64,000 bases of DNA from Thiothrix subterranea (GTDB lineage Bacteria > Pseudomonadota > Gammaproteobacteria > Thiotrichales > Thiotrichaceae): assembly GCF_016772315.1 (NCBI RefSeq), contig NZ_CP053482.1, forward strand, positions 2,046,001 through 2,110,000. Direction: 5' to 3'. Below, in pieces: positions 19,814-34,598 of the stretch. Both the position numbers and the translations under genes were made by a program. The number at the start of each line of letters is the position of its first letter. Position 1 is the first letter of the stretch. The notes under the pieces are model-generated. The model saw only the letters and a program-made list of their open reading frames with translations. It was not told where the DNA came from and ran no database searches.

Positions 19814-21478
19814 TCACATATTTAGTGCGATAATGTTGCTATAGGCGGAATAAGTGCCGTTGGTCTGGTAAGCCCGCACGCGATAACGGTAGCTCTCGCC
19901 ACTCTCCAGTGTGGAGTCACTATCGGTAAAGCTCACTGCATTTGCCGCGACGCTACCTAAAAATTCAAAGCTGGTGCAACCCGCTTTTAGGCAACGTTCC
20001 ACCTTGAACCCTGTTTCATTGTTGCTGGCATCTATCCAATTTAAACGCACCTTATTGCCAGCAAGTACCGTTGCAGTCAAATTGGCAGGTGCAGCAATCG
20101 CGGTTGAGGGTGTGGATACGGTTATATCTACCGTATTGGAATAATCAGAATAAACGGTTCCTCGGTAAGCACGAATTCGATAACGGTAGTTTTTATTTGC
20201 CTGTAAATTGGTATTGGTAAACTGGACAATATTCGCCCCCGTCGTTTTGATCACTGTAAAGTTAGTACAAGCCGCATTGAGGCAGCGCTCAATCTTAAAG
20301 CCGGTTTCATTGCTGCTGGTATCTACCCAATTTAGGCGTACTTGGCTGCTGGAGAGGGCGGTTGCTGTCAGGCTAGTTGGGGCAGCCAACAAAGACGGTG
20401 CAGCTAGTGTCGCAGTGGTCACAGTGCTGGAATAGCCGGAGTGATTCGTTCCTCGGTAGGCGCGTATCCGGTAACGGTAGCTGGTGTTACTCACAAGATT
20501 ACTGTCACTAAAGGTAATGCCATTGGCAGAAACCGTGCCGACCTCAGCAAAGCCAGTACAGGTTGCACCTTGGCAGCGTTCAATCTTGAAGCCCGTTTCA
20601 TCACTACTGGCATCCACCCAGTTTAGGCGTACTTGACTGTTGGAGAGGGCAGTTGCTGTCAGACTAGTCGGAGCAAGCGGGGGCGTAATGACGCCATTGG
20701 TAAGATCATAAGCTTCCTTAAACGTATAAAACTTCAACCCTAAACCTTTTGCAATATCAATAATTTGATTCAGTTTGCTGGCACGAATCGCATACTGGGA
20801 ATCTGCATCCGGTGAGGTATCGTCAAAGATATAATGACCATACAAGGTAATAATTTCATTGTTATTTTTTGCACGAATCAGTGCTTGTTCTATTTCTGCC
20901 ACAGTGCGTCCATAGCGATTATCAAGGCTTTCCCCTTCCAGAACGCCATAGGTTTTGTCGCTGTTATGGTAGATTTCATCCATTTGCGCCAGTTGTTTGC
21001 CCGCATCGTAAAAAGTTGTGCGCAAATAAGGAAGGTACTGTCTGATAGCCGCGTCATAGTTTTCGTCGCGCTCACCGGATGGGTATGAAAAACTAACCGG
21101 ATCGAAGCCATCAGCTTGCATATTTTGTATGGCGGGGATGACTTGAGTATTCACGTATTCCTGCGTCCGACTAGGATTAAACAAAAACTCACCCACGCCG
21201 GTATGGTCATAACTGTGGCAACCTATTTCATGCCCCTTGTTTTGCAAATCCCGTAGTTGGTCGATCTGGGTAGGACGGGATAACTCATGCCACTTGGTTA
21301 CAAAGAACGTGGCGCGTACATTATCAGTCCTGTTTGCAAAAAAATTATGCCAAAGCCCCGTACTGGTGTCATCAAAGGTTAATACGACGCCCGGTTGATT
21401 GGTTGCTGCTTGGACACTGGTGCCAAATACAACAGCTAACCAATAGATTACGATCCATTTTTTGAAAAAATTTCTCAT
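19814..21478 (-). CDS. Secreted polysaccharide deacetylase with three fibronectin type III repeats
   Basis: A 554-residue exported protein (signal peptide ending SVQA). The NodB domain covers about residues 25-270: catalytic Asp and metal site in LTFDD, metal His in HSYDH, SYPSGERDENYD for the third motif, and LYGHYIFDD near the end. Three Fn3-like repeats of about 90 residues follow, each with TSLTATAL, LNWVDASS, ETGFKIERC and YRYRIRAYRG-like steps. It should remove N- or O-acetyl groups from an extracellular polysaccharide. It lies next to a shorter paralogue and the exopolysaccharide locus. The Fn3 repeats carry paired cysteines (ERCxxxxC). Confidence 0.9.
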   Translation of the reverse strand: MRNFFKKWIVIYWLAVVFGTSVQAATNQPGVVLTFDDTSTGLWHNFFANRTDNVRATFFVTKWHELSRPTQIDQLRDLQNKGHEIGCHSYDHTGVGEFLFNPSRTQEYVNTQVIPAIQNMQADGFDPVSFSYPSGERDENYDAAIRQYLPYLRTTFYDAGKQLAQMDEIYHNSDKTYGVLEGESLDNRYGRTVAEIEQALIRAKNNNEIITLYGHYIFDDTSPDADSQYAIRASKLNQIIDIAKGLGLKFYTFKEAYDLTNGVITPPLAPTSLTATALSNSQVRLNWVDASSDETGFKIERCQGATCTGFAEVGTVSANGITFSDSNLVSNTSYRYRIRAYRGTNHSGYSSTVTTATLAAPSLLAAPTSLTATALSSSQVRLNWVDTSSNETGFKIERCLNAACTNFTVIKTTGANIVQFTNTNLQANKNYRYRIRAYRGTVYSDYSNTVDITVSTPSTAIAAPANLTATVLAGNKVRLNWIDASNNETGFKVERCLKAGCTSFEFLGSVAANAVSFTDSDSTLESGESYRYRVRAYQTNGTYSAYSNIIALNM

Positions 21479-21623
21479 AGCTTAGTACCTTACATTGATA
21501 GAAAATTTGGAATCATCATTAAATAAGCAATAGATAAAAATAATGATCTTTCCATGAAGATAAGCGTAGATTCTGCTTATCTACTCTCCGAGAGACAGGA
21601 CGTAGCGATCTGCCGTTAAGTGG

Positions 21624-22604
21624 TTATGGTTTTGCTCTAAATGACTGACGAAGCATTAAGACAAAAGTAAGCATTAGATAACTGAGAGGGAAACTGCCAC
21701 CGCCGCCACCGTTATTATTGGTTTGTGGAATGACTTCAGGTGGTACGCTAGAAAGACTATTTGAAGGAGTCGTGCCAGTATTATTACTGCTATTTAATGG
21801 AGAAACCGAGGGGGACGGTGGTTGGTTAGGAATTTCAAAAGCTTCATGAAACGTGTAAAACTTCAGTCCCAATCGTTGGGCTATCGCAATGATCTGGTTC
21901 AACTTGCTGGCACGTATCGCATAGGTAGAATCTGCATCCAACGATCTATCATCAAATATATAATGCCCGTATAAAGTAATGACTTCATTATTATTTTTTG
22001 CGCGAATTAGCGCTTGCTCAATTTCTGCGATCGTAACACCATAGCGGTTATCAAGGCTCGCCCCAGCAAGGACAGCGTATACCTTATCACTGTTGTGGTA
22101 GATTTGCTCAGTTTGGGCAAATGATCGACTTGAGTCATAATAAGTTGTGCGTAAATAAGGCAAATAAGGTCTGATAACAGCGTCGTAATTTTCATTCCGT
22201 TCCCCAGAAGGATAGGAAAAGCTCATCGGATAGAATCCATCGTTATTCATGTTACGTATTGCTGGAATCACTTCGGTATTGACATATTCCAACGTTCGAT
22301 TGGGATCGAAAAGATACTGCCCCACCCCTATATGGTTACGGCTGTGGCAACCTATTTCATGTCCTCGGTTTTGCAAATCCCGTAGTTGCTGTATCTGTGC
22401 CGTGGACAAGGTATGCCATTGACTGACGAAGAATGTGGCACGCACATTATCCGTCCTGCCTGCAAAAAAATTATGCCAAAGAGCCGCACTGGTGTCATCG
22501 AAGGTCAAAACAATGCCCGGCTGATTGGTTGCTGCTTGGCTATTAACCGATAAAAGCATAGCTGACAAACAGATTACTGCTAGTTTGTTAAAAAGACCCT
22601 TCAC
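21624..22604 (-). CDS. Secreted polysaccharide deacetylase with GlyGly-CTERM-like tail
   Basis: A 326-residue paralogue of the next deacetylase, with LTFDD, HSRNH, SYPSGERNENYD and LYGHYIFDD in the same order. Instead of Fn3 repeats it has a Ser/Asn/Pro linker, then GGGGGS, a hydrophobic helix (LSYLMLTFVLML) and a basic end (RQSFRAKP). This tripartite tail matches GlyGly-CTERM signals processed by rhombosortase. The best start is the GTG at 22604, with GGAGA in front; an upstream frame extension is excluded. Probable substrate: the polysaccharide made by the adjoining genes. Confidence 0.87.
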   Translation of the reverse strand: MKGLFNKLAVICLSAMLLSVNSQAATNQPGIVLTFDDTSAALWHNFFAGRTDNVRATFFVSQWHTLSTAQIQQLRDLQNRGHEIGCHSRNHIGVGQYLFDPNRTLEYVNTEVIPAIRNMNNDGFYPMSFSYPSGERNENYDAVIRPYLPYLRTTYYDSSRSFAQTEQIYHNSDKVYAVLAGASLDNRYGVTIAEIEQALIRAKNNNEVITLYGHYIFDDRSLDADSTYAIRASKLNQIIAIAQRLGLKFYTFHEAFEIPNQPPSPSVSPLNSSNNTGTTPSNSLSSVPPEVIPQTNNNGGGGGSFPLSYLMLTFVLMLRQSFRAKP

Positions 22605-22879
22605 ATTGTTTCTCCAGCTAAAATTATTATACAAACGCTTGTAAAACCAAAATCACATTACGTGTAAGTGAAGATAGGGTATTAGTAATATTCAGGGGTT
22701 ACTGTATTGATGAAGTGAGTGATTTTGGTGATATTTGGATATAAACACTATTTAGTGCAAATTATATTCATCCTCACACTAGTCGTCTCACGTAGTCGTC
22801 GCCTTGTCGAAAAAACATGGTGATTGCACACAAAAGAATTTATATAGAATAAAATTGAAACCCAGAGGGAGAAATAACC

Positions 22880-24112
22880 TTGCGCACGCTTATCTTATGG
22901 CTATTTTGCCTGCATTTTATCTTTTTGGCTTACCTGAACAATGTTTATCTGGCAGGCTTGCCAGTTAGGTCGTTTCTGATTTTGTTGACCGGTGGATTGG
23001 TGTTGTTATTAGACAGCAGCGTGGTTGCTCGCTTGCGACCGGTGAATGTGATCTACGTTTTGCTGGCATTGCTGGGCTTGGTGGTGTCGCTAACCAACAA
23101 TGTGGGTATGGGCAGTATCATTAGCGGTGAAATGCGAGTGTTGCAATCCTATTTGTTGCTCATGGTCGCTTATTTTATTCTGGAGCAGTACGGTTTTCGG
23201 GTGCTGGCGTTTGTCCTGCTGGGTTTGGCATTGCCTTCAGCATTGATTGGCATTTTGCAAGGATTTGATGTGCACGTTGCTTGGGAGTTTCATGCAATTC
23301 TTCAGGAAATGCAGAATAAGGAAATCAGTGATGAAATGCGCACCCAAATGGCGGAAGTACTGGATCGTCCCCCCGGACTAACACTGTATGCGATTCCCCA
23401 GACGTATATGCTGTTAAGTGCGATGGCACTGACGCTTTACTGGGTTATCAAGAATCCTGCTGATCAGCGTATTCAGTGGTTGGGGGGATTCGGGTGCATC
23501 ATACTGGCAGGCGGGATTTTTGCCTCAGAAACCCGTTCTGCCATGGGGGCTGCCTTAATAATGCCTGCATTAGTCTATTTGCGGCTATTCCCGGCACGGG
23601 TGATTCCGTTAGCGGGGGTAGCCGTGTTACTCGGCGCAATGGCTTACCTGTTGCTACCGGGTAATGCCGATGTGGATTCGCGCTTGATCAATTTGGATGA
23701 TGCTTCCGCAGCGGGGCGTTCCACACTTTATAAATACGGTATTGAGTTGTTTTGGCAGAAGCCGTGGGGTTACGGTTTTGAGTTTAATACGGTGGAGTAC
23801 GCCGTCGAGTATTTTGTGAACGAACGCAATTTATTCGATTACGGGCCGTTGGAAAAAGCCCAATACATTGTACCAGTACACAATTCCATTTTGAATTTGA
23901 TGCACACGTATGGATTTGCTGGACTATTGTTGTTGGTTTATTACCTTTACCGTCTCATGAAAGGAAGCTGGTATCGGTTAGCGATTATTGTCGCTACGTT
24001 AGTGAATTCTGTGTTTCATAACGCTGGTATTCTGAGTAATGATTTGTTTATGGATATGGTGATTGCGGTCATGCTGTACGAGATTTACCGGGAACAGCCC
24101 ACCACCGCCTGA
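22880..24112 (+). CDS. O-antigen ligase/polymerase-family membrane protein
   Basis: A 410-residue protein with about ten membrane helices. A long periplasmic loop between the later helices carries the Wzy/WaaL-type signature: TRSAMGAAL before it and VPVHNSILNLMHTYGFAG after it. Such enzymes polymerise undecaprenyl-linked repeat units or ligate glycan to an acceptor. The start is TTG with GAGGGAG upstream. It is divergent from the deacetylase and convergent with the GT4-Wzc fusion, within a wzy-type exopolysaccharide locus. Polymerase is favoured by context; ligase is not excluded. Confidence 0.85.
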   Translation: MRTLILWLFCLHFIFLAYLNNVYLAGLPVRSFLILLTGGLVLLLDSSVVARLRPVNVIYVLLALLGLVVSLTNNVGMGSIISGEMRVLQSYLLLMVAYFILEQYGFRVLAFVLLGLALPSALIGILQGFDVHVAWEFHAILQEMQNKEISDEMRTQMAEVLDRPPGLTLYAIPQTYMLLSAMALTLYWVIKNPADQRIQWLGGFGCIILAGGIFASETRSAMGAALIMPALVYLRLFPARVIPLAGVAVLLGAMAYLLLPGNADVDSRLINLDDASAAGRSTLYKYGIELFWQKPWGYGFEFNTVEYAVEYFVNERNLFDYGPLEKAQYIVPVHNSILNLMHTYGFAGLLLLVYYLYRLMKGSWYRLAIIVATLVNSVFHNAGILSNDLFMDMVIAVMLYEIYREQPTTA

Positions 24113-24133
24113 GGCAGGTGGCAGTGGCTATGT

Positions 24134-27100
24134 TTAAGCAGGGATGAGCATATTACGCCCATCAGAATAGTTGGATGCCTTGCTAATGTGTCGCAGGGGA
24201 ACCATATTTTGTACCAAACCGAGCAATTTGCCATGGCTTTTCTCTAGGCATTCAATCGAGGTACGGACTTCCTGTTTGGTAGAGGTGTTGTTCGCAACGA
24301 TTAAGAGCGTGCCATCTGCACGGTTGGAGAGCAGTAAGGAATCTGCCATACCCAATACGGGTGGCGCATCAATAATCACGTAGTCAAACAGTTCACGTGC
24401 CTTGTCGAGCAGCGATTGCATCCGTGTGCTAGACAGGGCTTCGACCGGATCGAGGATGGCAGGTCCTGCACAAACAGCAAACAGCAAACGTGTGCTTTTT
24501 ATCCGATGCAATGGGCTTTGATCGAGGTTGCCACTCAGGTAGTTCGTCAAGCCACTGCTATTATCCAAGTTTAGGTGCTTATGGACGGTAGGTTTGCGTA
24601 AATCGGCATCTATCAACAGAACTTTATGACCGGAACTAGCTAAGAGGGTTGCAAGGTTGACAGCTACTGTGCTTTTGCCTTCACCCGGTAGCGGGCTGGT
24701 AATGTGCAACACTTGTGGAAATTTCCCATAGTTTGCCAGCACTAGCGATGTGCGCAGATAACGTAAGGCATCTAACCAAATAGCGGCAGCGTTGGGTTTG
24801 AAAATGACCGTAGACCCCTCACTCACGGCTTTATTGTAAGGCAGGGCGTGCAAGATTTGATATTTACCGCCCGCTTCTTGCAGATCGGCTGAGACACGCA
24901 CTTTGGGTTGCATGATTTCACGCATGAGGATCAACAATGAACTCAGCAAGAACCCAGAGAGCAACCCTAGCAGCAGGTATTTTGAGTAGCTGGGGCCATC
25001 CTTACGCGATGGTGCAACGGCAGTATCGACAACACTCACGTTGTCACTTTGCACGGTTTCGACCACACTGACTTCTTTCAAGCGCTGCAATAGCCCTTCG
25101 TATAAGCTCCGAAAACTGTCCACATCGCGCTTTAGATTGGCATAGCCAATATTGTCGCTGCGAAACGTTAAGAGTTCCTTTTCTAATAGCTTGATTTCTT
25201 TGGCTAACTTCTGCTCTTCATCGGCTGCGGCATCAAAGGAGGCGCGGAGGTTATTGGTGGTATTTTTACGGATCAGCGTAGTTGCTTCAGCAATTAAGCG
25301 TTCACGGCTGTGAATTTGTTCCTGTAACGACAACATGGCGGGGTAATTGGGTTTGAATAATTCCAAGTTGGACAGGTAAGCACCTTGTAGTTTGCCGAGT
25401 TCTTGCTGGTGTTCTTGAACAACAGGGTCATCCGCCGCATTCAAAATACCGGAAAGTTCGCCCTTATTATTGAATTGGCTTTGGGTGCGAATGCGATTTT
25501 CTTTGGCTGTCATGTAAGCTTTGCTGAGGGCTTCCAGCTTTTGGGCGATGAGTGGTTCATCGGCATTGGTATCCACGATATTTTTGGTTCTGGCGTAACG
25601 GATCAGTGCGGCTTCAGCGGCTTGTAGTTTTTCACGCGCTGAATAGATTTGCTCGTTCAGGAAACGCTTACCGCCTTCTGCGACTTCGCGGCGATCTTCG
25701 TATTGTTGCTCGACAAATGTTTCTGTTAGGGTTTGTACCACATTGCGGGCTTGTTCAGGATTTTGCCCTGTGTATTGGATGTCGATAATCCGTGAACTTT
25801 TGACAGGTTTGATACTGAGGTTGTTAAGAAAGATTTCTTCTGCGGTGACTTGCTCAATAGCGTTGCTTGCGTTGTCATCAGTAGGGAGCAGACCACGCAT
25901 AAATTTAACCAAGTCCTTGAATGGGTCAGTCAAAGCATACAAGGTCGGGTTGAAGGGGCGTTCTGCCAGCAGGCTGTCCCGCATTGCCAGTTTGTCGATC
26001 ACACGACTGGCGAGATCACGGCTGCGTAGCATCTTAAATTGCGTGTTGTAAAAAACCGTTTCATCAATATAGGAAGGCGGTCGAGCCGTATCGACATCAT
26101 AATCCAGCAACATGGGGCTACGTGTATCCACTTTGATACTGCTTTTAGCCGTATACGTGGGGCTGGTCAGAGCGGCAAGTCCTAACATCAGTAATGCTCC
26201 CCCCAAAGTGGAGAGCATGATAGGTATCATGTTATGGCGCAATGCTCCCCAGTATTGCCGGAGTGGGATCTGCTGTGGCGGTGGCGCGTAGTAGCCACGA
26301 TTTTCTTCTGGCAGCATGATGCTTGCCACATTGCTTGTTTCGGCAATATCAGCGGCTTTGTTAATAGGGTGATTTATAGACATGGTGTGCTTGCCTTGCA
26401 TGGTCAATAGGTTTGCAGGCTGCCCTGAAACTGGCAGCATGACTTTCTGGTAAAAACGGATAAATTGTTCGGTAATCAGTGTCCAGGTGTAATTACTCAA
26501 CACATGCTGATGCAAAATACTGCCGATGTGTTTTACCTTGGCAGGGTTTGTCATCGCCTGTTGTAACTGTGTGCTTAGGGCGTTGACATCACCCATAGGA
26601 AATAAAATGCCTTTGTTACTGAGTGCTTCCGCATTGGCCTCAATATTGCTTGCGATACAGCAACGCCCTAGGCTCATGGCTTCCAATAAGGTAATGGGCA
26701 GCCCTTCTGTTTCAGACGGTAATACATACACGTAGGCATTGCTGTACCACTCAATCAGCTCATCGCCATAGACAGCACCCGTAAAGACTATGCGGCTGTC
26801 ATTGCTTGCGAGAGCACGTAATTCGTCACCGTAAGTGTCGCCTGCCCGTGCATTGCCCACAATTACCAGCTTAAGTGGCGGGTTTTGCAGCCGTTGATAG
26901 GCTCGCATCAGGTCGTGTACCCGTTTTTCCTTGGATAGCCTGCCAACAAACAGGATGTAGCCATCTGGCTTAATGCCGTGACGGGAAATGGTCTGGCAGG
27001 GAATGGCTTGGCGCGGGGTGATGCCCGACGGAATGTAGGTAACATCACGTTTGTATTTTTTCTGGTAGTAATGGCGCAGCGAACGTGACACGGCGATGGA

Positions 27101-27532
27101 GTCGTGAGCGAACCAAAAACTGAGTTTTTCAGACATCAGAAAGACCATACGCGCCAGACCGTTCCATGCGTGCGCCCATTCATGCCCATGACTTTGGAAA
27201 ATGGTACGCCGCCCTGCTAGTCGAGGGATGAAGGAAAACAGGCTGGGACCAATCGCTTGGTAATGCACAATATCCAGATGTTTAATGCTGAATTGATGAA
27301 AACTCGCCAGAGCAACCAGCAGCATTTTTTCAAAATACACATGCTTTAATGTCGGCAACGGAATAATCCACATGCCTTCATGAAAAAATGGGCGAGAATA
27401 TTGGGGAGTTTTAATGGTATAAACAACAACCTGATGGCCTGCATCAACCAAGCGCTTGCCCAGTTCAAGTGTGTAGGTTTCGACCCCACCAATGCGGTCA
27501 ATACCTTTAATGGCAATAAATGCGATTTTCAC
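24134..27532 (-). CDS. Fusion of a GT4 glycosyltransferase with a Wzc-type chain-length regulator/BY-kinase
   Basis: An uninterrupted 1132-residue frame. Residues 1-370 are a GT-B GT4 enzyme (GGVETYTLELGKRL; FVGRLSKEKRVHDL; ETEGLPITLLEAMSLG near 274). Residues 384-1132 are a full Wzc-type protein: Wzz domain with helices near 440 and 856, long coiled coils between them, then a kinase with Walker A GEGKST (about 947), LLIDADLRKP and YVIIDAPP. The C-terminus has only one nearby Tyr (SNYSDGRN). Met384 (at 26383) has AAGG upstream and could start the Wzc part separately. It would couple sugar addition with export control. The two parts lie in one frame with an 18-residue linker. Confidence 0.88.
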   Translation of the reverse strand: MKIAFIAIKGIDRIGGVETYTLELGKRLVDAGHQVVVYTIKTPQYSRPFFHEGMWIIPLPTLKHVYFEKMLLVALASFHQFSIKHLDIVHYQAIGPSLFSFIPRLAGRRTIFQSHGHEWAHAWNGLARMVFLMSEKLSFWFAHDSIAVSRSLRHYYQKKYKRDVTYIPSGITPRQAIPCQTISRHGIKPDGYILFVGRLSKEKRVHDLMRAYQRLQNPPLKLVIVGNARAGDTYGDELRALASNDSRIVFTGAVYGDELIEWYSNAYVYVLPSETEGLPITLLEAMSLGRCCIASNIEANAEALSNKGILFPMGDVNALSTQLQQAMTNPAKVKHIGSILHQHVLSNYTWTLITEQFIRFYQKVMLPVSGQPANLLTMQGKHTMSINHPINKAADIAETSNVASIMLPEENRGYYAPPPQQIPLRQYWGALRHNMIPIMLSTLGGALLMLGLAALTSPTYTAKSSIKVDTRSPMLLDYDVDTARPPSYIDETVFYNTQFKMLRSRDLASRVIDKLAMRDSLLAERPFNPTLYALTDPFKDLVKFMRGLLPTDDNASNAIEQVTAEEIFLNNLSIKPVKSSRIIDIQYTGQNPEQARNVVQTLTETFVEQQYEDRREVAEGGKRFLNEQIYSAREKLQAAEAALIRYARTKNIVDTNADEPLIAQKLEALSKAYMTAKENRIRTQSQFNNKGELSGILNAADDPVVQEHQQELGKLQGAYLSNLELFKPNYPAMLSLQEQIHSRERLIAEATTLIRKNTTNNLRASFDAAADEEQKLAKEIKLLEKELLTFRSDNIGYANLKRDVDSFRSLYEGLLQRLKEVSVVETVQSDNVSVVDTAVAPSRKDGPSYSKYLLLGLLSGFLLSSLLILMREIMQPKVRVSADLQEAGGKYQILHALPYNKAVSEGSTVIFKPNAAAIWLDALRYLRTSLVLANYGKFPQVLHITSPLPGEGKSTVAVNLATLLASSGHKVLLIDADLRKPTVHKHLNLDNSSGLTNYLSGNLDQSPLHRIKSTRLLFAVCAGPAILDPVEALSSTRMQSLLDKARELFDYVIIDAPPVLGMADSLLLSNRADGTLLIVANNTSTKQEVRTSIECLEKSHGKLLGLVQNMVPLRHISKASNYSDGRNMLIPA

Positions 27533-27578
27533 AGTGTGTCCCTAACCGTTACTCAGGTGATTTTTACAATAGATAAGA

Positions 27579-28568
27579 TTAATGGTTATTGCCATGAGGC
27601 TTGGGACAGGTGGTGAAAATCAGCAGATGATTTGGTAAGTAGCGTTTTTTCAAGATCATTAAAAATAGCAGGGCTTCCAGCATCAATATCAGGCTGAGCA
27701 ACACCCAATTATGTAAACCAGCACGAATGGCTAAGAGGGTTAAGCCCCACAAGCCCAGCACCAGTAGCGCGGCGGGCAGAATTTTACAAGTCACCAGACG
27801 CCACAGGCGTGCTGAACTTATCGCAAGGGTCGCGGCAAGGCTATTCATGCGTAACACTGTTGCCAAGAATGTGGCTAACACGCTGGCATAAATAACCCCA
27901 TCAGCAGTGAACAGAATACTAAAAGGCCAGAGTAATGCTAATTTAATGCCCATTTCAGAGATGCCCAGCAACGCATTGGCTTTCTGTTGACCAACAGCAT
28001 TGAAATACGGCGTAGTTGCCAATTGCACCGCCAACCCTAGCAAGGTAAGGGTGAAAATCGTCAGCGGTAGGGCGAGGTATGCGTAAAACTGACCCACCCA
28101 TAGGGTTAGAAAAGTTTCACCCACCAGCCATGTATTAAAAATAGCCAATAGTGCCAACCCTACCCCAATTTGCAGTGACGTTAACAGGGTATCTAAAGCA
28201 CTGGCGAGGCGTCGCTCTCCAACCTGGCGCATGATAATGGTGTCCCAGTAGCTTTGAAAGCGCATCAGAACTTGTGTCAGCATGTCTATCAGCACGATCA
28301 TAATGGCGTAAGGTGCAACGGCCTGCATACCAATCAACACCCCGACCAATACATTGTCGGTGCGGTATTTGAAAAAATCAGCCGTTTGACTCAATGCCGT
28401 GTATTTGCTGAAACGCAATAACGCTTTCAAGTGCTGCCAGTCTACGGCTTGCCATTGCAGATACACCGTATGGTCGCGTCGGTACACGCTGATCAGCATG
28501 AAGGCAAAAAACAGTACATTGACAACAGAGGCGTATAACAGAATGGCTATCAATTCCCCCCTAGCCAC
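27579..28568 (-). pseudogene. C-terminal two-thirds of a frameshifted Wzx-type flippase
   Basis: A 329-residue frame, opened by GTG, with about eight membrane helices, continuing the MATE/Wzx-type flippase begun at 29071. It contains KYRTDNVLVGVLIGMQAVAPYA, typical of polysaccharide flippases. The join lies in the run of six G (minus strand) at 28556-28561: one added G gives the continuous reading LILWLGGELIAILL. The GTG start has no convincing ribosome site. The break may be a real mutation, a phase-variable tract or a sequencing error. Confidence 0.75.
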
Positions 28569-29071
28569 AAGATCAGGGGTATGCCTAGCAAGCGTAGGCT
28601 GATACGTACTGTTTCAAACCAACCAATTTCCAAATAGCGGACTTCTGCTCGCAAAACACTTTGGTAAAGCCGCAATGGTACAGATAGGGCGACTTCCACT
28701 AGCAAAATCGTGATCACGTCCCACAGTGCCTGTTGGGTGGTGGCGAGTGGTGGGATGCTGAATTGCACCAATACCGCAACGAGTAATAATAACCCCGTCA
28801 ATAGCAGGGATAGGAACATCGAGGTACTCAGGGTCATTTGCCAAGCGTGTTTATCATCGCCGTGTAAGGCAAGGTAGCGCGTACAAGCGTAAGCAATCCC
28901 GAAATCCAACAACAACAAATAACCGACAATCGCATTCGCCATCGACCACAAGCCAAAAGCGTTTTCACCCAGTGACTGGAGGATAAAAGGTAACAGTATT
29001 ACCGCACCTAAGGCATTGAGACCGATAGCAAACAGGCGAATCAAAGTCGAATTAGTGTAGTTCTTGCTCAT
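28550..29071 (-). pseudogene. N-terminal third of a frameshifted Wzx-type flippase
   Basis: A 173-residue fragment starting at the ATG at 29071, which overlaps the stop of the GT4 gene as ATGA. It has the first helices of a lipid-linked oligosaccharide flippase (LIRLFAIGLNALGAVILLPF; AFGLWSMANAIVGYLLLLDFG) and stops in LWLGGN just after the six-G run. The intact protein would be about 497 residues, normal for Wzx. Such flippases move undecaprenyl-linked repeat units across the inner membrane, so loss would block a wzy-dependent pathway. Confidence 0.78.
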
Positions 29072-30192
29072 CAGGTACGCACAGCCGCCGCCGCAACCAA
29101 ATCCACAATGCGTTGATTCCAGTCGAAGCGATAACGTGCCTGACAAGCGGCAGTTTTGCTGCTGAGCACGGTGGCATAGCCCGGTAATTGCAGGAATTTA
29201 TCCAGTTTGTTGATCAATACCGCGTGCTGGTCGGGGGGAAACAGCAATTCGTGGTCAGGCAGCACCTCACGTATTTCGGGAATATCACTGGCGAGGCAAG
29301 GCAGACCATAGCCCATGGCTTCCAACAAGGCGTTGGGGGAACCTTCATGCAGGGTAGGAAAGACAAACAGATGGCAGGTTTGCAAAATAGATGCAATATC
29401 GCTTTGCCAGCCGAGGAAAGAGACTTTATCGGCAATACCTGCTGTGTCGATGAAGGCTTGCAGTTGTGCCTGATAGCCCACGCCGCTGGTGTCATCACCT
29501 ATCACAAGGTATTCCCAATTGGTGTTACGCACTTTGCTAAGGGCTTCCAGCATAAACAAGATGTTTTTGCGTGGCGTTACCACCGATACTGTTACCATAC
29601 GTAGGGTATCGCGGCGAATGTCGGGGCGTGGTAATGCCAGTGGCTGTGTGACGATATGGTTAGGCAGGCAACGTGTTTTGGTGTTTCCGCCGGAACGTTG
29701 GTTAATGATCGCCCGCATCGTTTCGCTGGTGGTAATCACTTGATGGGAATAGCGCATTCCCAATTTTTCCAACACACGATGAAAGGCAATACGCAACCCT
29801 GCAAAGCGTTTTTTGCGCGAGTCAAACACATCATCGCCGCGTATAAAGGTTAGGGTGCGTACCCCTAGCCCCTTACCCGCGAAAATGGAGAGGGTTGCGT
29901 AAAAAAATGAAAAAATGAAATGTTGCGTAATCTGATGTTCACGGGTCAAGCGCCGCATCTCGCGTACTGCCCGCCAGCAAAATTCCGGCCAATACCACAG
30001 CGAAGTCGGGCGGGAACGCATCGGCAAAATGACCGGCTGGATACGTTCACCTTCCACCGGCAACGTTTCAGTTGCAATATAGATCACCCGATAGCCCGCT
30101 GCATCCAAGGCGCGGTAAGCGCGGTACAGGCGCGTGGTAAACCCGCCGGGTTTGTGCCGGTAGTACGCAGACAAAATAACAGTGGCATTCAT
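29071..30192 (-). CDS. GT4-family glycosyltransferase
   Basis: A 373-residue GT-B-fold enzyme. Motifs: HKPGGFTTRLYRAYRAL at the N-terminus (acceptor side), VVTPRKNILFMLEAL at the hinge, and the nucleotide-sugar Glu motif HEGSPNALLEAMGYGLP near residue 290. It should transfer a sugar from a nucleotide donor to the lipid-linked repeat unit at the cytoplasmic face of the membrane. It is the first gene of the leftward operon with the broken flippase and GT4-Wzc fusion. The donor cannot be predicted. Confidence 0.9.
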   Translation of the reverse strand: MNATVILSAYYRHKPGGFTTRLYRAYRALDAAGYRVIYIATETLPVEGERIQPVILPMRSRPTSLWYWPEFCWRAVREMRRLTREHQITQHFIFSFFYATLSIFAGKGLGVRTLTFIRGDDVFDSRKKRFAGLRIAFHRVLEKLGMRYSHQVITTSETMRAIINQRSGGNTKTRCLPNHIVTQPLALPRPDIRRDTLRMVTVSVVTPRKNILFMLEALSKVRNTNWEYLVIGDDTSGVGYQAQLQAFIDTAGIADKVSFLGWQSDIASILQTCHLFVFPTLHEGSPNALLEAMGYGLPCLASDIPEIREVLPDHELLFPPDQHAVLINKLDKFLQLPGYATVLSSKTAACQARYRFDWNQRIVDLVAAAAVRT

Positions 30193-30348
30193 GCGATGAA
30201 CTCAAGCGTAGACATAAATGCACCCTATCATTGTATCGAATCGCTGTTGAGTGCGGCTGCGAACAGTGGTAGCAGTCGCAGGAAGACTGGCACAAGCGAC
30301 CGGCGCATAGCGTATACTTAGCCTCAACCCAACCAGTTAGTGAGCCTA

Positions 30349-31389
30349 ATGACCCGACAATACCGCGCTGTTTCCCTGCTTTCCGGTGGCCTTGATTCCA
30401 TGCTTGCCACCAAAGCGGTGTTGGAACAAGGCATTCATGTGGAAGGCATCAACTTCTACACCGGCTTTTGCGTAGAAGGCCATACGCACGCCATCCGCAA
30501 ACACCACAGCGATAAAATCAAACGCAACAATGCCCTCTGGGTAGCCGAACAACTCGGCATCAAACTGCACATTGTGGATATTGTGGAAGCCTACAAAGAT
30601 GTCGTGCTCAACCCCAAATACGGCTACGGCGCACACCTAAACCCTTGCCTTGACTGCAAGATTTTCATGGTAAAAAAAGCGCACGAATGGATTCAGCAAA
30701 AAGGTTTCGATTTCATCATTACCGGCGAAGTGGTGGGGCAACGCCCCATGTCGCAACGCCCGGACACCATGCCGATTATTGCCGCCGAATCGGGTGCGGA
30801 AGAACTGCTGTTACGCCCACTGTCTGCGCACAATTTACCCCCCAGCAAACCCGAACGCGAAGGCTGGGTTGATCGTGACCAGTTGTTTGGTTTCCGAGGG
30901 CGCAACCGCAAACCGCAGATAGCCCTTGCTGCCCAGTGGGGAATCACGGATTACGCACAACCGGCGGGCGGCTGTTGCTTCCTGACGGATGCTAATTACA
31001 CCGACAAACTGCAAGATTTGTGGGCGCATCGCCCTAACCGCGCTTATGAACTCGATGACATTATGTTGCTGAAAATCGGGCGGCATTTACGCCCGCGACC
31101 GCATTTTAAAATGATTGTGTCACGCGAGGAGGGTGAAACCCATTTCCTCGAAGGCTACAAAAACCAATTCCTCTGGATCAAAACCGCCAGTCATTCCGGC
31201 CCGTTAACCTTGCTGGATGGCGATACGCTTACCGATGACGATGTGCACCTTGCCGCGCAAATTTCAGCCCGCTACAGCCAAGGCAAGCACGCGGCGGAAG
31301 TCGTCTGCCAGTTCGCTCGTCCGGGTGCTGCGCTTCAGGAAATCAGCGTTACGCCCTTGCGCGACTTGCCGGATACTTGGCTACTTTGA
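30349..31389 (+). CDS. PP-loop ATPase, tRNA-thiolation-like
   Basis: A 346-residue protein with an N-terminal PP-loop (LLSGGLDSMLATKA), NPCLDCKIF, and PAGGCCFLTD with paired cysteines. The C-terminal region, about 130 residues, has HFKMIVSREEGETHFLEGY, possibly an RNA-binding add-on. The family is often labelled tRNA (5-methylaminomethyl-2-thiouridylate) methyltransferase-like or ThiI/MnmA-like; the exact modification is uncertain. The cysteines suit persulfide chemistry. A GTG at 30340 is an alternative start. It lies convergent with rnd, their stops two bases apart. Confidence 0.75.
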   Translation: MTRQYRAVSLLSGGLDSMLATKAVLEQGIHVEGINFYTGFCVEGHTHAIRKHHSDKIKRNNALWVAEQLGIKLHIVDIVEAYKDVVLNPKYGYGAHLNPCLDCKIFMVKKAHEWIQQKGFDFIITGEVVGQRPMSQRPDTMPIIAAESGAEELLLRPLSAHNLPPSKPEREGWVDRDQLFGFRGRNRKPQIALAAQWGITDYAQPAGGCCFLTDANYTDKLQDLWAHRPNRAYELDDIMLLKIGRHLRPRPHFKMIVSREEGETHFLEGYKNQFLWIKTASHSGPLTLLDGDTLTDDDVHLAAQISARYSQGKHAAEVVCQFARPGAALQEISVTPLRDLPDTWLL

Positions 31390-31390
31390 A

Positions 31391-32533
31391 TCACGCTTCC
31401 ATGACCAATTGCTGATCCCGCACGCGAATGCTGGCCTTACCTGCCAATACCGCCGTAAACAAATCATTCACCAACGCGCCACGCCAATCGTCAGACAGGG
31501 TGGTGCGCCCTTCTTCCAGCATTTTTTCAAGCTGTTGGCGGGTGGCAATCATTTGCGCCGAAATGCCGTTTTCATGCGCGACTTGATTGAGCAGGGCGGT
31601 CAGCACGTCCGCCACCACGCTCATGGACGCATCCAGTTTGCGGCGACGCGGTAAGGATGGGCATTCACTTTTCGGCACTGCTTGTCCACGAGCAATGCAA
31701 GCCAGCCATTCGCCCGCACCGCGTTCAATTTGTTCATCGCTCAAGCCACGAATCTGGCGCAATGCCGCTGGGCTGTCCGGTTGCATCCGTGCCATGTCTA
31801 GCAAGATTTCATCGGATAAAATCCAGCGTCGGGGAATGTCTTTGAGCAAGGCACGCTGTTCACGCCATGCCGCTAATTCGCGCAAAATTGCCAATTGCTG
31901 CGGCTTGAGGATTTGCAAGCCTTTCACCCGTTCCCACACGGTTTGCGGGTCAACGGTGTAAGTCGCGGGATCGGCGAGTTTTTGGAACGGTTTTTCCAAC
32001 CAATGCATCCGCCCCAATTGTTCCAGTTGTTCGCGCAAGCGCAAATAAACATCGCGCAAATGGCGTACATCGTCAATGGCGTATTCCAGTTGCGCCCTCG
32101 TCAAAGGGCGGCGTGACCAATCGGTACGTGACTGCGATTTATCCAGCGCTATGCCCAGCAAGGCTTCCACCAAACGCGCATACCCCAATTGGTCGCCCAT
32201 GCCCAACACGGCAGCGGCAACTTGGGTATCAAACAGCGGGGCGGGTACGTTGCCATTGCCTAAATGGTGGAAGATTTCCAGATCTTGCCAAGCGGCGTGC
32301 AAGACTTTCAGGCGCTGTGGCTGATTGAGCCACTTCAGAAACGGTTGCAAATCACTAATCGCGATGGGGTCAATGCACGCCAAGGTGTCAGCACTGGCAA
32401 TTTGGATCAAACACAATCGCGGGTAATAGGTTTTTTCGCGGATGAATTCCGTATCCAAGGTAATCCATTCGGCAGCATCGAGCCGAGCCATGAGGTCGGT
32501 TAACTTTTCGGCATTATCAATATAATCAAACAT
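31391..32533 (-). CDS. rnd: Ribonuclease D
   Basis: A 380-residue 3'-5' exoribonuclease for tRNA and small-RNA 3' ends. The DEDD core begins with WITLDTEFIREKTYYPRL, continues with KVLHAAWQDLEIF, and has YAIDDVRHLRDVY (DEDDy type). HRDC-like helices (RALLKDIPRRWILSDEILLD) follow. I prefer the ATG at 32533; an upstream TTG would add six residues, and neither has a strong ribosome site. Confidence 0.95.
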   Translation of the reverse strand: MFDYIDNAEKLTDLMARLDAAEWITLDTEFIREKTYYPRLCLIQIASADTLACIDPIAISDLQPFLKWLNQPQRLKVLHAAWQDLEIFHHLGNGNVPAPLFDTQVAAAVLGMGDQLGYARLVEALLGIALDKSQSRTDWSRRPLTRAQLEYAIDDVRHLRDVYLRLREQLEQLGRMHWLEKPFQKLADPATYTVDPQTVWERVKGLQILKPQQLAILRELAAWREQRALLKDIPRRWILSDEILLDMARMQPDSPAALRQIRGLSDEQIERGAGEWLACIARGQAVPKSECPSLPRRRKLDASMSVVADVLTALLNQVAHENGISAQMIATRQQLEKMLEEGRTTLSDDWRGALVNDLFTAVLAGKASIRVRDQQLVMEA

Positions 32534-32693
32534 AGACGTGGTGCGCTTCAACTAGAACAGCAACGATTGTACGGCAAACAGGGGTGTAACCATACCTTGG
32601 AACACCCGCATACCCATAAAAACACAGCAATCCTCATGGCTTTGGTGCACTGCAACGTTAGTGTTTAAGAATATTTGAAATATCAACTGTTTG

Positions 32694-32850
32694 TTGACAT
32701 TGCTCACGTTTTTCTGCACATTGAGAAATATCAAATTTCCTGAACAGTAACGCTTTTGAAACCGCTAGTGAGGGTAGTTGCCATGCACAGTATTGCTAGG
32801 TTGTGTATGGTCTGAGCGGTCAACCCGGTCAACACGACCGGGTTTTTTTT
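32694..32850 (+). ncRNA. Candidate small RNA in the rnd/protease intergenic region
   Basis: The 307-bp space between rnd and the protease gene (both leftward) contains no convincing gene. It ends in a strong rightward terminator, so something is transcribed rightward. TTGACA at 32694-32699 could be the -35 box; the -10 box is poor (CACATT with a 17-base spacer). The transcript would be about 120-130 bases and untranslated. No known small-RNA class is recognised. Confidence 0.4.
32822..32850 (+). terminator. Strong intrinsic terminator, rightward
   Basis: A 9-bp perfect stem AACCCGGTC / GACCGGGTT with a 5-base loop runs into eight T residues. In the leftward direction there is no T run, so it does not serve the protease gene. 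Confidence 0.9.
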
Positions 32851-32858
32851 CGGGTTCG

Positions 32859-34598
32859 CTAAACCGGATTCAACAACGCTTCCAAGTACGTGGTGATGCT
32901 ACTCGCCGTTTTCCGTTCCGAGCTACTCAATGTTATCCCCTGAATCAGCGCGGCATTGCGCAAACCCAGCAAATAACGTATCAACAAAATCGCATCTTTA
33001 TCAGCCTGCTGCTGTCCATCCGCGTCAATGTCCATCACCTGCTGCACGGCGGCTAATTGCGTTTCCAGTGTCGCAAGATTGAACGTATGCTGGGTAACAC
33101 CTTCCACCAACGCGGCTCCGCGTGTCCCTTGCAAATAACGGGCGATGAGCACTCCTTCCACCAAGCCCGTGGGCGGAATGTTGCTACCGCGCAGGCGCAA
33201 TGACGGCGGCGTGCCGGTTGCCCCCAACCAACTGCTAATCAGCGGCCAAGTGCGCTCGAAACGGCTGTATTCATCCGGCGCAGCGGGATTGGCACAATCC
33301 GACGAACCGCCCAGCAAAGAACCGTTGAGGTAATGTTTGCCGCCCTGTTCCACCCAAATGCCCGAACCGCTGCTCCCCGGTGCGGTAATGCCGGTATGCC
33401 ACTGCACGCTGGAAAAATCACCGTTAGTATCGGGGATGACAGAATAGCCCCCGTTGAGGGTTTCCATCCGCATGTGCGCTTGAAAATTACCCATTGCGTA
33501 CTTTTTCGGGCTGCCCAAACCGTGATGGATGCCGGTCACGGCTTGATTGCTGGTCAGGGGCGTATTCGTCCACCCCGACATCAATACGCCAGTGGGCGGA
33601 TTTTTATTCAGACGCACAAAGGTTGTGTCTAACGCCGTTTTGCTCATCAATAATTGTGCGCCGCCGGTGGTTTGCGTAAAGCTGCTGTTAGTGCCGCCAC
33701 AGGTGGCATTTGCATACAACCAGAACAAATCCATGGTGCTGGCGGCTTGCTGATTGTTAACACAATGCGCGGCGGTGAAAAAATACGGTACTTGCGTGTA
33801 CACATCGTTATCTGCCAGCACCGTTCCCGAACACAAATAACTCAAACCATCCGCTTCGGTAAACACATAACGCGCCACCGCTTTGCCGGTTTCCTGCCAA
33901 GCAGGGCTGGCACAGGCGATGTCTTGCTGGCAACTGGCGTATTCTTCTTTGACAATACTGCTTTTGAGCTGACTACTGGCGGGGTCAACCACCAAATGCG
34001 AAAGCTGCGGCAGTGCCAATTCCACCTGTTGAGGCGTTACCCCGGTGGGCAGAAACACCTCCATGCCCAAGGTATCGCCTTCCACCGTCGGCGACCAAGT
34101 AAGGCTATGGGCGGCGGCATCCGCCGCAAACACTTGGGCCGGGTTCGTGGGGGAATAAAAGCGCAGCTCTGCGCCTGCGGGGAAATTGCCGATCTGCACC
34201 TGCGCCCGCACCCGCACCGCGCCAGTGGAGGTCACACTGAAATGCGCCACTTTGCCGCCGCTAACCGTTGTCCATTGCCACGCATTCAAATCCATGGTGT
34301 CACTGACGCTGCTGGGCAATGCCCGCCCGACGCCGACGCGATACGCCTTCGCCCCTTGCCCGTTTTGCAATAACTGAAGCTCAACGTCTTGCAATGCCGG
34401 TAAACTCACCGCATTAGCCGTTGCCGTAGTGTTGCGCGTGGTTGCACCCCGTGCTGCCGCCTTGGGCAATACCGGCAAGCGCAATGCCACCGTTTCAGTG
34501 GCGGTTTCGCCTTGAAAAACTTCCGGTTCAGCGCGGCTATTTGCCTGTACCGGGTGCGCCAAGGCCAGTAATAAACACGTCAGGGTTAGCATTTTCAT
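32859..34598 (-). CDS. Secreted trypsin-like serine protease with dockerin-like C-terminal repeats
   Basis: A 579-residue exported protein (signal peptide ending VQA). A beta-rich prodomain covers about 40-220. The protease domain has the triad His in FTAAHC (about 278), Asp in LDTTFVRL (about 324) and Ser in PGSSGSGIW (about 408), resembling lysyl-endopeptidase types. The end has two similar 30-residue segments: VEGVLIARYLQGTRGAALVE, and IDADGQQQADKDAILLIRYL followed by LGLRNAALIQG. The second has a dockerin/EF-hand-like Ca loop. The adjacent upstream gene is cohesin-like, so attachment between the two is plausible. Confidence 0.85.
   Translation of the reverse strand: MKMLTLTCLLLALAHPVQANSRAEPEVFQGETATETVALRLPVLPKAAARGATTRNTTATANAVSLPALQDVELQLLQNGQGAKAYRVGVGRALPSSVSDTMDLNAWQWTTVSGGKVAHFSVTSTGAVRVRAQVQIGNFPAGAELRFYSPTNPAQVFAADAAAHSLTWSPTVEGDTLGMEVFLPTGVTPQQVELALPQLSHLVVDPASSQLKSSIVKEEYASCQQDIACASPAWQETGKAVARYVFTEADGLSYLCSGTVLADNDVYTQVPYFFTAAHCVNNQQAASTMDLFWLYANATCGGTNSSFTQTTGGAQLLMSKTALDTTFVRLNKNPPTGVLMSGWTNTPLTSNQAVTGIHHGLGSPKKYAMGNFQAHMRMETLNGGYSVIPDTNGDFSSVQWHTGITAPGSSGSGIWVEQGGKHYLNGSLLGGSSDCANPAAPDEYSRFERTWPLISSWLGATGTPPSLRLRGSNIPPTGLVEGVLIARYLQGTRGAALVEGVTQHTFNLATLETQLAAVQQVMDIDADGQQQADKDAILLIRYLLGLRNAALIQGITLSSSERKTASSITTYLEALLNPV

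Follow-up and report, generated by a model that had tools for sequence, protein, structure and literature searches.

A gene on the minus strand of the window, i.e. the 64-kb stretch of the 4.08-Mb genome of Thiothrix subterranea that was analysed, encodes a GT4 glycosyltransferase and a Wzc-type protein as one chain of 1132 amino acids (24134..27532). Its frame starts with GTG at 27530-27532, ends with a stop codon at 24134-24136 and comprises 1132 codons with no interruption. That this fusion is one translated and selected frame is near certain. Two known families are joined here in a new way, and the fusion probably tethers a repeat-unit GT4 to the Wzc complex, where assembly of the unit, its polymerisation and its export would share one place and one ratio. 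The first-pass annotation, which described a complete GT4 enzyme running into a complete Wzc-type protein with a short linker and no stop, was borne out by Pfam, by the single frame and by ten orthologs. Its coordinates for an uninterrupted frame were also right, although the frame has to be read on the minus strand; the plus strand of 24134-27532, in the frame given, contains many stops.

Domain architecture of the fused protein

In Pfam, residues 14-336 matched GT4 domains, 421-515 Wzz, 799-872 GNVR and 940-1112 P-loop domains, with every score exceeding the curated cut-off of its family. The protein could be divided into three parts, namely the GT4 part (1-365), a linker predicted to be disordered (366-421) and the Wzc-type part (422-1132), in which the kinase motifs are intact. 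All parts of the gene are given below with their coordinates on the minus strand.

The GT4 part (26438..27532) was defined by Pfam, the ortholog alignment, AlphaFold2 and Foldseek, with scores of 100.5 bits for PF00534 (cut-off 26.4) and 70.8 bits for PF13439 (cut-off 28.5). In the alignment, all ten orthologs share R198, K203 and the two glutamates of the EX7E motif, E276 and E284; EX7E and the donor-site Arg and Lys are motifs of GT4 enzymes. AlphaFold2 modelling of residues 1-465 from 38 sequences gave a mean pLDDT of 83.5, with values mostly >90 in the GT4 part and <50 at 370-421, and with a helix at 424-455. A model of the whole protein (1132 aa, 10 sequences) was poor (pLDDT 46, pTM 0.25) and was kept out of the fold searches. 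The best solved matches of the modelled GT4 part in Foldseek were GT-B enzymes, e.g. sucrose-phosphate synthase 6kih, BshA and PglA. Based on profile and predicted GT-B fold, the N-terminal half appears to be a GT4 glycosyltransferase, which would transfer a sugar.

In the C-terminal half, both the Wzz and the GNVR domain that mark PCP-2a proteins were found (PF02706, 35.1 bits, cut-off 25.5; PF13807, 41.8 bits, cut-off 27.7). Of the two transmembrane helices that flank the periplasmic part in PCP-2a proteins, the first is predicted at residues 424-455 (26168..26263), inside the Wzz domain, by Pfam and a model of moderate confidence. The second is predicted at residues ~849-874 (24911..24988), where the GNVR match ends in hydrophobic sequence, and in a low-confidence model. 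The BY-kinase-type domain (residues 920-1115; 24188..24775) contains Walker A (946-955), Walker A' (972-981) and Walker B (1051-1059), and the core residues GEGKST, DADLRKP and DAPP are invariant in all ten orthologs. The NCBIfam model TIGR01007 (polysaccharide biosynthesis tyrosine autokinase domain) scored 135.3 bits against a cut-off of 108.05, and the fused protein matched Wzc 7nhr at profile positions 764-1127 (E 4.6e-53).

The C-terminal tail (24137..24187) carries one tyrosine, Y1122 in NYSDGR. Among the fused orthologs, whose tails show a YSDGR-type motif, the last 40 residues hold one tyrosine in six and two in four proteins, compared to 2-4 in three separate relatives. A tyrosine-rich C-terminal tail, stated to be a BY-kinase feature in PMC8285477 and PMC12004946, was found in none of these ten. 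In E. coli Wzc, as described in PMC8285477, the Tyr-rich tail binds the active site of the neighbouring subunit and stepwise phosphorylation disassembles the octamer. With one or two tyrosines the fused tail is too poor in this residue for the scheme as described there; the protein was therefore filed as Wzc-like, and the label of a canonical Tyr-rich autokinase was rejected.

The linker (26270..26437) is variable in sequence and length. It is in frame in 10/10 orthologs, all length changes among them preserving the frame, and of its 55 ungapped alignment columns only P367, M378 and Y414 are invariant.

Conservation and origin of the fusion

Of the 16 genomes searched in the genus, ten, including that of the window, have the fused gene as a single open frame, as established by translation of each locus. 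The nine other orthologs show 62-92% identity to that of the window and include those of T. caldifontis (G002), T. lacustris (G005) and T. fructosivorans (G004). Genus and family are used here as grouped in the genome collection, and four of the genus relatives are recorded as Thiothrix. No split ortholog was found among the 16 genomes; in the remaining six, all GT4 matches are distant (best E 1.6e-30, versus <=8.5e-198 in the ten). A stop codon at the junction, which in the first-pass annotation would count against the fusion, is present in none of the ten orthologs of the genus; stops were read in the separate forms outside it.

All parts of the fused gene are under purifying selection, with dN/dS below 0.4 in every part that was computed. 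In nine pairs the ratio was 0.04-0.09 for the GT4 part, 0.05-0.12 for the Wzc part and 0.12-0.28 for the linker after Met378, while the linker before Met378 gave 0-0.35 in eight computable pairs of 13-33 codons each; many of the underlying dS values exceed 1 and are unreliable.

Close relatives of the GT4 part (E <=1.8e-187) were detected in 15 of 63 genomes of the family. Ten of these are fused, all in this genus, and five are separate, four of them in one other genus and one in another. Among named genomes, a scan detected 13 loci, of which 11 are close: five fused forms and five separate forms already counted, and one new separate form, L065. One separate form (L062, identical to G058) belongs to another genus in the grouping used, though deposited as Thiothrix sp. 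The GT4 is thus a separate gene in six relatives outside the genus, i.e. five genomes of other genera of the same family and L065, and Wzc follows directly in the five junctions that were read. GT4 and Wzc are parted by a WecA-like gene (PF00953) in the third genus (G031).

The adjacent separate genes (G058, G059, G061, G062 and L065) have the same order and direction as the two halves of the fusion, and their GT4 proteins are 57-62% identical to the fused GT4; they differ from it in that the GT4 ends in a stop codon, with Wzc starting 8-35 bases further on. In the four genomes of one other genus, the distance from GT4 stop to Wzc start is 8 bases in L028, 20 in L030 and L031 and 35 in L029, out of frame in each. 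In L065 (3881-7345) the gap is 18 bases and both genes share one frame, parted by one TAA and six codons, which makes it a natural pair one stop codon short of fusion.

In a GT4 tree of 15 rows without outgroup, fused and separate forms were split at 100/100. After addition of a distant outgroup (16 rows) the fused forms were united at 74/73, which supports one origin of the fusion weakly; L085 and L086 are absent from the GT4 tree. A Wzc tree of 18 rows, rooted on paralogs of the genus, united the fused forms at 100/99 with only two separate forms included, namely L028 and a cut L031, as the motif filters removed the separate forms L029, L030, L032 and L065 and the outgroups L003 and L033.

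No second GT4-Wzc fusion was found among the matches listed for 369 genomes of the class and 299 of the phylum, which were partly overlapping draws. Two candidates per genome were scored in these searches, the best matches were listed and some long frames were opened, in the class those longer than 963 aa and in the phylum G434. As reported open-frame lengths may cross a stop (G008, G434), the ten fused frames rest on their own translations. The longest Wzc frames elsewhere, L123 (1088 aa) and L126 (1060 aa), lack a GT4 and are extended at the N terminus by other sequence, and L109 (1024 aa, cut by the locus end) has a longer coiled coil and no GT4. Twelve more distant GT4 homologs of the class were also opened, none of them fused to Wzc, and among 1069 matching plasmid records none covered 80% of the query. 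In the literature, no paper on a GT4-Wzc fusion was found among the matches listed, judged by title and the start of the abstract; subscription papers were largely, and protein databases wholly, outside this scope, so a record of the architecture may exist there.

These results can be accommodated in the following scheme. The product would be one inner-membrane protein of ~125 kDa. Its N-terminal GT4 half would add one sugar to the undecaprenyl-linked repeat unit at the cytoplasmic face, and its C-terminal half would be an oligomerising PCP-2a (Wzc-type) co-polymerase that carries a kinase domain and organises Wzy polymerisation and export. As the Wzc N terminus is cytoplasmic, the GT4 is expected to hang beside the kinase ring on a flexible linker of ~55 residues. 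The fusion may have arisen in a single event, in which the stop codon and the short spacer between two co-directional neighbour genes were lost in frame, and may have been retained since the GT4 is then fixed at the export complex in a 1:1 ratio with Wzc. We infer this tethering, which we regard as probable, from topology, gene order and precedent. It agrees with the coupling of glycan assembly to export proposed in the first-pass annotation, and such coupling would be the most economical reading, although the fusion could also be neutral.

Such a neutral fusion, in which two operon neighbours were joined and both domains work as before while the link has no function, is somewhat unlikely. The free divergence of the linker is in line with it, as is a fusion of adjacent genes elsewhere in the cluster (second GT4, GT4b, and methyltransferase in G007, versus a separate gene in G011). 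However, none of the ten orthologs in the genus has been split again even though dS exceeds 1 in many pairs, and the linker has kept its frame through its changes of length.

Met378 as a possible internal start

Rereading of the junction near 26383-26440 agreed with the first-pass annotation, Met384 (26381..26383) being present there, yet the internal initiation proposed at this codon was not upheld. Met384 occurs in 4/10 orthologs and was rejected as a start because it is missing in the other six, whereas Met378 (26399..26401) is invariant in 10/10 and aligns with the codon at which the stand-alone Wzc genes of related genomes begin. In L030, L031 and L065 the separate GT4 protein terminates in KGTVA or KGTTA ahead of the Wzc start, and the fused L012 and L013 read KGTVTIM at this place. 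Judged by this match, the Met of KGTVTIM, which is Met378 in the window, is most likely the ancestral Wzc start codon.

A second, Wzc-only product from Met378 is possible on sequence grounds. One gene would then give two products, the full fusion and a Wzc-only protein from the retained ancestral start, and the rings would be mixed, with fewer GT4 units than Wzc units. We consider this unlikely. Besides being one of the three invariant linker columns and aligning with separate Wzc starts, Met378 lies in a region of high synonymous identity, where 12-codon windows reach the 83rd-98th percentile of the gene (95th at the true 5' end). Few places in the mRNA of the gene are less structured than codons 378-385, with a mean rank of 23 among 1106 columns for codon 378 and the first rank for codon 384. 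In 9/10 orthologs the mRNA at Met378 belongs to the most open 16% when all windows of the respective gene are compared; against GC-matched windows the value is <=0.14 in six of the ten and 0.20-0.54 in the other four.

Against two products speaks that the Met378 region of the window's own gene is ordinary, 0.44 of all windows and 0.54 of the GC-matched ones being more open. Furthermore, no Shine-Dalgarno match is present at Met378 in the window or its nearest relatives: anti-Shine-Dalgarno pairing 5' of this codon is absent in L001, L009 and L010 (+2.2 kcal/mol), about zero in L011 (0.1) and modest in the remaining six orthologs (-3.2 to -3.9), where the spacing is long. This test has little power in view of the control values (mean -1.23 for 211 other in-frame ATGs; +2.1 to -7.7 for 15 putative starts in the window). 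The signals at Met378 may also be relics of the ancestral start.

A further reading, by which the kinase half regulates the GT4 half of the same chain in cis and the Wzc-only subunit from Met378 sets the number of GT4 units per ring, is improbable. If true, the synthesis of repeat units would be gated by the assembly state of the export machine.

Gene neighbourhood and comparison with known systems

The convergent neighbour of the fused gene encodes a Wzy_C-family protein, polymerase or ligase (22880..24112, plus strand), followed by two polysaccharide deacetylases on the minus strand (19814-21478 and 21624-22634), all assigned by Pfam. On the other side, a Wzx-type flippase (27579..29146) and the second GT4 of the cluster, GT4b (29071..30192), both on the minus strand, were recognised by Pfam and by comparison with relatives. 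In the nine loci of genus relatives, compared by tracing GT4, Wzx, Wzy and the flanking genes, GT4b is present in 9/9, Wzx in 8/9 and Wzy in 7/9. Outside the genus, GT4b and Wzx likewise lie 5' of a separate GT4 at three loci, and in L065 two frames at the place of GT4b and Wzx look alike, judged by eye. Within the 64-kb window, OPX (Poly_export) and PF02397-type priming (Bac_transf) genes gave no match; the rest of the genome has two Poly_export and five Bac_transf matches.

Some variation was observed in this cluster. In G007 (L053:6725-8800) the second GT4 continues into a C-terminal methyltransferase domain, giving a fusion of 692 aa, while G011 has a separate methyltransferase gene (L052:10092-11000). 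When 19814-34598 was compared with L049 and L051 (G013, G014), the flanks were 94-99.7% identical, whereas identity fell to 57-83% for GT4b, Wzx, the fused GT4 and Wzy, which suggests that the cluster is exchanged at a fixed site.

The flippase of the window consists of two overlapping frames (28550-29146 and 27579-28568), broken near 28562 at a G run; it is a single frame in all eight genus relatives with Wzx beside the fusion. The break may be due to sequencing error, to decay or to slippage (phase variation). Although this break next door makes errors or decay in the region conceivable, it is highly improbable that the fusion itself stems from a stop codon lost by sequencing error or mutation in the strain of the window, as the first-pass annotation had considered, since the same fusion is conserved in nine other genomes, the three species named above among them, with 10/10 orthologs fused and dN/dS low throughout.

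Several points weigh against the tethering of the GT4 at the Wzc complex as well. Cleavage after translation or a second start is possible, six of the 16 genomes of the genus manage without the gene, the adjoining flippase frame is broken in this genome, no OPX or PF02397-type priming match lies in the window, and the tail is poor in tyrosines. Findings in S. aureus (PMC6441080) point both ways: CapAB phosphorylates CapM and raises its activity, which is a precedent in favour of a kinase of this type acting on a glycosyltransferase, but it leaves CapL, also a glycosyltransferase, and several further Cap proteins unphosphorylated, which counts against the reading.

In our view, it is hard to test whether the cytoplasmic glycosyltransferases of Wzx/Wzy systems belong physically to the Wzc complex if the contacts between them are weak. 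In Thiothrix, a GT4 and Wzc are naturally joined and kept so while relatives keep both apart, and this offers a ready-made pair for testing contact against chain length and flux. The fusion could also be a means to hold a glycosyltransferase on the Wzc ring for structure work.

In comparison with known systems, the GT4 half resembles stand-alone GT4 enzymes in its modelled GT-B fold (target-normalised TM-scores in Foldseek of 0.82 to BshA 5d01_B and 0.79 to PglA 8dvz), but differs from BshA, PglA and others by being covalently joined to a co-polymerase. With PCP-2a proteins such as Wzc (solved chains 7nhr and 9r62) the fused protein shares Wzz, GNVR and the Walker motifs A, A' and B on a single polypeptide, but it has a whole GT4 enzyme ahead of the first transmembrane helix. 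The Wzc paralogs of the genus have seven (four paralogs) or three (two of the six) tyrosines in the last 40 residues, versus the one or two of the fused form. CapM of S. aureus is a priming enzyme and is not known as a GT4. The CapA-CapB/CapM system is comparable in that the BY-kinase complex targets a glycosyltransferase from its own pathway (PMC6441080), but there the partners are separate proteins.
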